DNA from: Candidatus Bathyarchaeota archaeon
GTDB taxonomy: Archaea > Thermoproteota > Bathyarchaeia > Bathyarchaeales > Bathycorpusculaceae
Direction of reading: 5' to 3'
DNA: 64,000 nucleotides
Assembly (NCBI GenBank): GCA_026014725.1
Contig: JAOZHV010000059.1
Coordinates: 1 to 64,000 of the forward strand
The position numbers and the translations under genes are program-made. Under the pieces are notes generated by a model. That model saw only the letters and a program-made list of their open reading frames with translations. It was not told the origin of the DNA and did no database searches. The stretch's first letter is position 1. Every line of letters begins with the position of its first letter. Positions 55,729 to 58,774 of the stretch are shown here, piece after piece.

Positions 55729-55765
55729 AATATGCATTTGTTGTTTCACTAGTGTTACCACATTA

Positions 55766-55776
55766 TTTTATATTTT
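55766..55776 (+). promoter_or_regulatory. TATA box of the candidate structured RNA
   Basis: TTTTATATTTT is 11-21 bases upstream of the first paired base (55787), which puts the expected transcription start just inside or at the beginning of the folded segment. It supports independent transcription. Confidence 0.45.
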
Positions 55777-55785
55777 CTGAACGGT

Positions 55786-55926
55786 TAGCTGTTGGTAGGA
55801 ATGCAAGGGATAGCCAACACCGTTGAGCAGGTCAAGCTGCTGAATACCAAAAAAGGCGTCGCCCACCTAACTTTTCTAACGCCTTAACTATTCAGCACAC
55901 GGCTTGACCTCTCAGCTGTCATTTTT
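55786..55926 (+). ncRNA. Candidate structured non-coding RNA
   Basis: About 140 bases with nested pairing and no open frame. The main stem pairs 55829-55837 (AGGTCAAGC) with 55902-55910 and 55838-55846 (TGCTGAATA) with 55889-55897, broken only by a CACG bulge; inside it AAGGCGT (55853-55859) pairs with 55879-55885, leaving a 19-base loop. A separate hairpin TGTTGG...CCAACA (55790-55818) and an outer AGCT/AGCT helix (55787-55790 with 55914-55917) close a multi-branch shape. Six T follow. A TATA box precedes it. No known RNA family is recognised; strand could also be the reverse. Confidence 0.6.
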
Positions 55927-56010
55927 TAAACAATTAACAAAAACAAGTTTGCTTGTTCTGATGGCTCTTCCATCTATTAAAGGCAGAAGCATCTTGTGGT
56001 TCAATATTGC

Positions 56011-56798: not shown

Positions 56799-57686
56799 AT
56801 GGTGCCGTTGATTTCAAGCTTTGATCCATGGCGTTCAGGCCTCTGCACATGCCCACCCAAACTAACGTTTAACCCTTACACAGGATGCGACCATCAATGT
56901 GCCTACTGCTATGCATCCAGCTACATCCCAAACTTTAAGGATTGCAGACCCAAAAAAGACCTGTTAGTTTCACTAAAGAAGGAAGCCGCCAAGCTCAAGG
57001 GAGAGACCATCTCGATAGCCAACTCCTCTGATCCTTATCCGCGAACAGAAGCGTCTGCTGGTTTAACACGACGCTGCCTTGAAATCCTCACAGAGAGCAA
57101 CTGCAAAATCCAAATCATAACCAAAAGCAACATTGTAACCCGAGACGACGACCTGCTCAGCAAGGTGCCCGTCACGGTTGCGTTAACCATAACTACAGAT
57201 GACGATAGCTTAGCAAGGCAGATTGAGCCGTTTGCACCTCTGCCTTCTCAGCGCATAAGAGCTGCCCAAGACCTAATCAAAACAGGCATCCCAGTCTCAG
57301 TTCGAATAGACCCCATTATCCCCATGTTAAACGATGAACCACAAAAGCTCATTTCAGAACTAGCAAGCATAGGCGTCAAACACTTAACATGCTCAACTTA
57401 CAAGGCTAAACCAGACAACTGGATGCGCCTAACCAAAACCCTGCCCCAAACAGTAGAGAAGCTCAAGCCGCTCTATTTTCAGCAAGGCGAGCGCGTTGGT
57501 GGAAGCACGTTACTGCCCAAAGAGTTTCGATACAAACTCCTCAAAAGCATACGGGATTTGGCTTTGGCGAACGGAATGCAGTTTGGCGTTTGCAGAGAAG
57601 GCTTAAATCAGCTAAACACGGCGGCATGCGACGGCTCATGGCTCATGCCAAACGATAAGGAGGCTAAACAACGCAGACTCGCGTGA
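56799..57686 (+). CDS. SPL-like radical SAM protein
   Basis: A 295-residue radical SAM protein of the spore-photoproduct-lyase-related (Rv2578c/YplQ) group. It starts with SFDPWRSGLCTCPPKLTFNP, has the cluster motif CDHQCAYCYA (Cys30, Cys34, Cys37), the family phrase SSDPYPRTEA and a SAM-binding SVRIDPIIP strand, and ends CREGLNQLNTAACDGSWLMP. The substrate is unknown. Its stop overlaps the GTG start of DNA polymerase IV (GTGA), so the two are translated together, which suggests a shared role in DNA damage. Confidence 0.88.
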   Translation: MVPLISSFDPWRSGLCTCPPKLTFNPYTGCDHQCAYCYASSYIPNFKDCRPKKDLLVSLKKEAAKLKGETISIANSSDPYPRTEASAGLTRRCLEILTESNCKIQIITKSNIVTRDDDLLSKVPVTVALTITTDDDSLARQIEPFAPLPSQRIRAAQDLIKTGIPVSVRIDPIIPMLNDEPQKLISELASIGVKHLTCSTYKAKPDNWMRLTKTLPQTVEKLKPLYFQQGERVGGSTLLPKEFRYKLLKSIRDLALANGMQFGVCREGLNQLNTAACDGSWLMPNDKEAKQRRLA

Positions 57687-58774
57687 TTATGCTGGCAGAT
57701 TTTGATTACTTCTTTGCGCAATGCGAAGAACTCCGTAACCCAGCCATCAGAGATAAGCCAGTGGTCGTGGGCGTTTACTCAGGACGCACTGAAGACAGCG
57801 GAGCCGTAAGCACAAGCAACTACATTGCACGTAAATACGCGGTCAAGTCAGGCATGCCACTGTTCTTGGCGAAGCGTAAACTCGAAGGCACAGATGCGGT
57901 TTTCTTCCGCGTTGACCATGAGTACTACAACCAAGTAAGCAACCGTATCATGGATATTTTTCGTACTTACGCCACAAGCGTTGAGCAAGTCAGCGTTGAC
58001 GAGGCATACTTAGACGTTACAGAACAAGTCGAGGGTAGCTTCGAAAAAGCAAAAGATTACGCCCAGAAGATAAAAGCCGATGTCAAAACGAAAGTCGGCA
58101 TAACGTTCACAATCGGCGTTGGACCAAACAAACTCATAGCAAAAATAGCCTGCGACGCTCAGAAACCCGACGGTTTAACAATAGTGAAGCCTGAAGAAGC
58201 TCAAGCTTTTCTTGCTCCACTCTCGGTTGACCGACTTTTGGGGGTAGGCAAAAAAACTACTGCACGCATGGAGCAGATGGGCATAAAAACTATCGGCGAC
58301 TTAGCAAAATACGACTGCCAAGTGCTCATCGAAGTTTTCGGCAAGGCACTAGGTATCTACTTTCACAATGCAGCAAACGCTATAGACAACGAACCTGTAC
58401 AAGAGCAGGGTGAAGCAGAATCCATAAGTCGAATCGGCACCTTAAAACAGGACACACGTGACTTAGCGTTTATTTTGCAGAAAACCGCTGAGTTAACAGA
58501 GGACATTTTCAAAGAAGTATCAGACAAAAACTTGAGTTTCAAAACAGTTTCAATTTATGTTGTCATGACAGATTTAAGCAGCAAGAGCAGGTCAATAACG
58601 CTTGAACAACCAGCCAAAGACAAAGAAACCATACTGAGAAACACAAAAATGCTTCTCGAGAAATTTTTGAGCGAAACGACACTTCAAATCCGCAGAGTCG
58701 GCGTAAGAGTCGCAGGTTTTAGCAAAGAAGAACCACAGCAAAAACAAATAACAAGCTTTTTCTCAACAGCCTAA
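57683..58774 (+). CDS. dinB: DNA polymerase IV (Y family, Dpo4-like)
   Basis: A 363-residue translesion polymerase. Catalytic residues: LADFDYFFAQ (first Asp) and SVDEAYLDVT (Asp-Glu pair). After the palm come thumb (LLGVGKKTTARMEQMG, HhH) and little finger, and the C-terminus QKQITSFFSTA is a canonical PIP box (QxxIxxFF) for binding PCNA. Translation starts at GTG 57683 or ATG 57689. It follows the SPL-like gene with an overlap of four bases. Confidence 0.95.
   Translation: MIMLADFDYFFAQCEELRNPAIRDKPVVVGVYSGRTEDSGAVSTSNYIARKYAVKSGMPLFLAKRKLEGTDAVFFRVDHEYYNQVSNRIMDIFRTYATSVEQVSVDEAYLDVTEQVEGSFEKAKDYAQKIKADVKTKVGITFTIGVGPNKLIAKIACDAQKPDGLTIVKPEEAQAFLAPLSVDRLLGVGKKTTARMEQMGIKTIGDLAKYDCQVLIEVFGKALGIYFHNAANAIDNEPVQEQGEAESISRIGTLKQDTRDLAFILQKTAELTEDIFKEVSDKNLSFKTVSIYVVMTDLSSKSRSITLEQPAKDKETILRNTKMLLEKFLSETTLQIRRVGVRVAGFSKEEPQQKQITSFFSTA

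Follow-up and report, generated by a model that had tools for sequence, protein, structure and literature searches.

To our knowledge, the Bathyarchaeia, a large and uncultured group of sediment archaea, have yielded hardly any descriptions of small RNAs, and no paper joining Bathyarchaeota, noncoding RNA and covariance model was found in the collection searched. In Methanosarcina mazei, sRNA162 uses its 5′ end and a single-stranded linker to target mRNAs (PMC3510493). Furthermore, archaeal Lsm binds U-rich RNA (PMC10779274), and archaeal transcripts are terminated by U4-U7 tracts (PMC8716108).

The RNA gene described here is located in a window of 64,000 nucleotides, which is the whole stretch of Bathyarchaeota DNA that was analyzed. 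Like sRNA162, it is predicted to give an independent intergenic small transcript with single-stranded segments beside the structure as proposed target contacts. However, there is no known sequence or structure relation between the two, and the new RNA is multicopy, with a common chassis and promoter element. The U-rich 3′ end and loop as well as a hairpin beside the terminator resemble Lsm/Hfq-associated sRNAs, but the hairpin is much longer than a terminator, and binding to Lsm is a prediction from the U-runs. The archaeal guide RNAs of the H/ACA and C/D types are also small stable stem-loop RNAs, whereas the new RNA has a one-sided bulge, not a guide pocket, and no C box. The new gene is comparable to those of archaeal SRP RNA and RNase P RNA in that it encodes a structured RNA.

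Anatomy and identity of the RNA gene

The segment is almost certainly a conserved structured RNA gene. A preliminary description had placed a candidate RNA gene at 55786-55926, between a zinc-finger gene and a convergent DUF3795 gene, with a TATA box before and a T run after it, and both neighbors as well as both signals were found (Table 1). The neighboring genes are that of a cation-transporting P-type ATPase, that of a 35-residue C2H2 zinc finger, which lies upstream, and the DUF3795 gene downstream. Elsewhere in the window (56799-58774), a radical-SAM gene overlaps by a few bases with a gene for a Y-family (DinB-like) DNA polymerase, which suggests a repair operon.

Judged from the TATA box, the 5′ end of the RNA would lie about 26 nt past the center of this box, near 55795, which falls within the interval given before, and the 3′ end would be at the T-run. 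The main stem of 18 pairs is formed by AGGTCAAGC and TGCTGAATA (55829-55846) with TATTCAGCA (55889-55897) and GCTTGACCT (55902-55910) and is broken by the four-base bulge. The inner stem is AAGGCGT/ACGCCTT (55853-55859/55879-55885) and the closing helix GTTGAG/CTCAGC (55822-55827/55911-55916). All three helices had been described at this place before; the additional side hairpin, at the 5′ end, lacks conservation, and a single-stranded leader is the best reading of the 5′ segment.

Table 1. Features of the RNA gene in the window.
Feature	Position	Strand	Basis
Promoter element TTGTTGTTTCACTAGTGTTACCACAT upstream, specific to the family; imperfect dyad	55738..55763	+	Consensus TTgTTGTtTCAnnnTGtAACAACAT precedes 50 of the 56 copies
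TATA box TTTTATAT	55766..55773	+	Window sequence; conserved across copies
Predicted mature RNA, about 133 nt	55795..55927	+	Covariance model match 55783-55926 (R1 118 bits, R2 103 bits); fold z -4.97; ends predicted
Single-stranded 5′ leader block GGAATGCAAGGGATAGCCAAC, near-invariant	55798..55818	+	Most columns invariant in 10 orthologues; differs in paralogues
5′ arm of long hairpin (closing helix and 9 + 9 pairs)	55822..55846	+	Folding, covariation
Inner stem of 7 pairs; apical loop containing a U-run (TTTT, 55872-55875)	55853..55885	+	U-run kept in 50 of 56 copies
3′ arm of hairpin, including one-sided 4-nt bulge CACG (55898-55901)	55889..55916	+	Bulge mostly CRNG in 56 copies; covariation backs pairing on either side
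T-run, probable terminator or U-tail	55922..55927	+	T-run of 4 or more at most 25 nt past the helix in 46 of 56 copies

The region 55780-55935 has a fold energy of -51.2 kcal/mol, with a mean of -34.8 for shuffled sequences (z -4.84; 0 of 200 shuffles as good). For the opposite strand a z of -2.57 was obtained.

The Rfam 15 search of the window gave no match at the gathering threshold, the two matches at E<=10 being far below it. Neither tRNA nor tmRNA was detected in the window by ARAGORN. SRP RNA and RNase P RNA are represented by genuine genes (RF01857 and RF00373) elsewhere in the same genome, which score above the Rfam threshold. An H/ACA RNA was rejected, as the sequence following the helix of the window copy, TGTCATTTTTT, has no ACA near the 3′ end, and as the internal break of the consensus lies on one side only and forms no two-sided guide pocket. 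A C/D box RNA was likewise rejected, since no RUGAUGA (C box) is present in 55795-55927. The earlier view that the segment belongs to none of the known families, including tRNA, RNase P, SRP and H/ACA, therefore stands.

Copies, covariation and promoter element

Relatives were found by BLASTN in 9 genomes of the same genus. The covariance model search that had been proposed for this candidate was carried out with two models. R1, built from ten sequences, matched 21 of the 257 genomes searched in the class, every one of them in the host genus. R2, built from 56 copies, detected no copy outside the host genus among 398 genomes of the phylum. As both runs used Infernal's stricter filters, very divergent relatives were possibly missed. 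In total, the family comprises 57 copies in 21 of the 32 genomes of the host genus (Bathyarchaeota MAGs), with 1-8 copies per genome, and the other 11 genomes were still empty in a more sensitive run. The host genome itself carries a second copy (C17:33609-33747). Named records with the leader motif are Bathyarchaeota or Crenarchaeota MAGs; a Mesorhizobium record with a 19-base motif (L045) reached only 19.5 bits with the model and is probably a chance match. One copy, L064:5028-5145, which has no recognizable promoter or full 5′ arm and adjoins a gene of the small-protein family described below, is probably decayed. The multicopy family, its dedicated upstream element and the co-occurring small-protein family had all escaped the preliminary description.

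In an alignment of 56 distinct copies with corrected bulge register, standard pairs occupy 89.4% of the pair cells and changes on both sides occur at 19 of the 27 pairs, counts which are leaned by the fitting of this alignment to the model. The covariation score is 0.427, compared to 0.243 for shuffled alignments and at most 0.148 for slid structures. In a MAFFT alignment of ten sequences, which was not fitted to the model, double changes are already present at 13 pairs. Compensatory changes among homologues, on whose presence the proposal of a new RNA had been made to depend, are thus numerous. Several pairs are G-U in most copies, e.g., columns 77-165 in 52 of 56. Read from the opposite strand these would turn into C-A, which identifies the RNA of the + strand as the structured one.

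The bulge is one-sided in the family as a whole, the apical loop has a U-run of 4 or more in 89% of the copies vs. 23% of shuffled loops, and a junction motif with GCC is conserved in most copies. A pseudoknot between leader and apical loop was rejected, as the leaders pair with their own loops no better than with other loops.

Upstream, the copies have in common an element of the form TTGTTGTTTCA-N-TGTAACAACAT in addition to the TATA box. It is recognizable as TTgTTGTtTCAnnnTGtAACAACATTATTTTATATT before 50 of the 56 copies, has imperfect dyad symmetry and adjoins the TATA box. In 12 genomes this pattern has 17 matches, 15 of them directly upstream of an RNA copy, and the reversed pattern has none. 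The upstream element is nearly exclusive to the RNA gene family and behaves almost as its signature. The promoter of its own that had been claimed for the gene is thereby given a concrete form, a dedicated element and a TATA box conserved upstream of the copies, from which transcription is predicted. The remaining two matches precede ORFs for a small zinc-ribbon protein and for a secreted protein (L209 ~1501-1533; L214, reverse strand, ~1501-1536).

Leader and co-occurring small-protein family

Among the 10 orthologues the leader, which probably starts near 55795 and would be about 27 nt long, is kept more strongly than the hairpin. Paralogous lines have other leaders, e.g., TTGTGTGGAAAAGCAGTATGTGCCCGAC or AACTAAGAGCCAAC, most of which end in the GCC-containing junction. 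A short ORF in the leader (beginning ATG CAA GGG) is not coding, because its start is ACG in two orthologues and its frame is shifted by length differences. In 7 genomes, a search with up to 3 mismatches found no conserved near-full complement of the leader, but only scattered matches besides its own gene and the paralogues. Pairing with SRP RNA or RNase P RNA is not notable either, with 27 and 40 of 200 shuffles being as good. Both results count against antisense action.

A gene for a protein of about 80 residues, belonging to an unnamed family, lies no more than 300 bp away from 11 of the 39 RNA copies of 11 genomes, against an expectation of 0.11; this count is inflated by orthologous loci, about six being independent as judged from their contexts. 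The proteins occur in 22 of the 32 genomes of the genus with 1-23 paralogues per genome. Both RNA and protein are present in 21 genomes, neither in 10 and the protein only in 1 (agreement 31 of 32; Fisher 1.7e-7), although descent of a single subclade from a common ancestor could account for this pattern. The protein has no Pfam match and no convincing PDB relative, and its AlphaFold model shows the order helix-strand-strand-helix-strand-strand (pLDDT 81). It is not an obligatory neighbor, as most of its genes are far from any RNA copy. One of them, in the host genome (L012:1110-1348, +), precedes the gene for RNase P RNA (L012:1501-1803) by about 150 bp. The small protein may be a partner of the RNA.

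Proposed function and alternative explanations

The anatomy of the RNA and the precedents from other archaea (PMC3510493, PMC10779274, PMC8716108) lead us to give about an even chance to a trans-acting small RNA, in which the hairpin is the chassis, a U-run binds Lsm and the leader contacts targets. The common upstream element and the TATA box would drive a transcript of about 130 nt ending at the T-run. The long bulged hairpin would serve as common chassis and protect the RNA, its CRNG bulge may dock a protein, and the oligo-U of the apical loop and the 3′ tail may recruit Lsm. The exposed 5′ leader, constant within each orthologous line and different between paralogues, would be the specificity element, most likely through base pairing in trans to target mRNAs. 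Trans action fits the copies, since they sit among unrelated genes in any orientation.

The main rival to this reading is an RNA that works in complex with the ~80-residue protein, or as an antitoxin or sponge for it. The proximity of the genes at about six independent loci, the matching presence and absence, and the protein gene just upstream of RNase P RNA speak for such a pair, and in view of the co-occurrence the RNA could work through the protein. It seems nevertheless rather improbable, as most protein genes have no RNA nearby and most RNA copies, including that of the window, no protein; moreover, the orientation varies, no RNA-binding fold was recognized, and the copy numbers are not significantly correlated within RNA-bearing genomes. 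The near-invariance of the leader over many species and the conserved GCC motif of the junction would also suit a structural RNA with a housekeeping role, in which the partner bound by the leader is a protein or a stable RNA and not an mRNA. This is unlikely in view of copy numbers of 1-8, leaders that differ among paralogues, and the absence of the family from a third of the genus.

Dispersed paralogues and three 89-94% identical copies in one genome (G015) could be taken for a non-autonomous mobile element or transposon end. The sites of these recent copies (L048, L050, and L051) are unrelated, and the region upstream of the copies does not resemble the usual promoter element. However, such an origin is very improbable: recent duplicates share only promoter, RNA and T-run, and on inspection their edges show neither terminal inverted repeats, as in a MITE, nor target-site duplication. 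Orthologous sites are conserved in several species, eight loci being beside a flavoprotein gene, which we take to be AfpA-like, and three others beside the same four genes. The covarying changes keep the structure, no relatives were found in the phage and plasmid collections, and viral contigs gave no exact motif match in two scans. With orthologous positions kept and duplicates free of terminal repeats, there is no sign of the transposon-end inverted repeat that had been named as the counter-explanation. The terminator-like T-run might finally point to a cis-regulatory leader or terminator hairpin of a neighboring gene. This is hardly credible, since the RNA has its own promoter element upstream, the next gene in the window is convergent, and the neighbors vary between copies, which bears out the earlier statement that the segment is not a leader.

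The family might represent an RNA-based system of regulation that is specific to this clade and has no known counterpart in other archaea, in which one hairpin chassis and one promoter element are combined with paralogue-specific 5′ specificity segments and work with an equally expanded small-protein family, although we regard this as doubtful. Due to the strong covariation, the promoter signature and the clear orthologous lines, the family can be searched directly in existing metatranscriptomes. With the chassis retained and the leader changed from one to the next, the paralogues form a natural series for learning what the leader recognizes, and the neighboring small-protein family is a concrete candidate partner.
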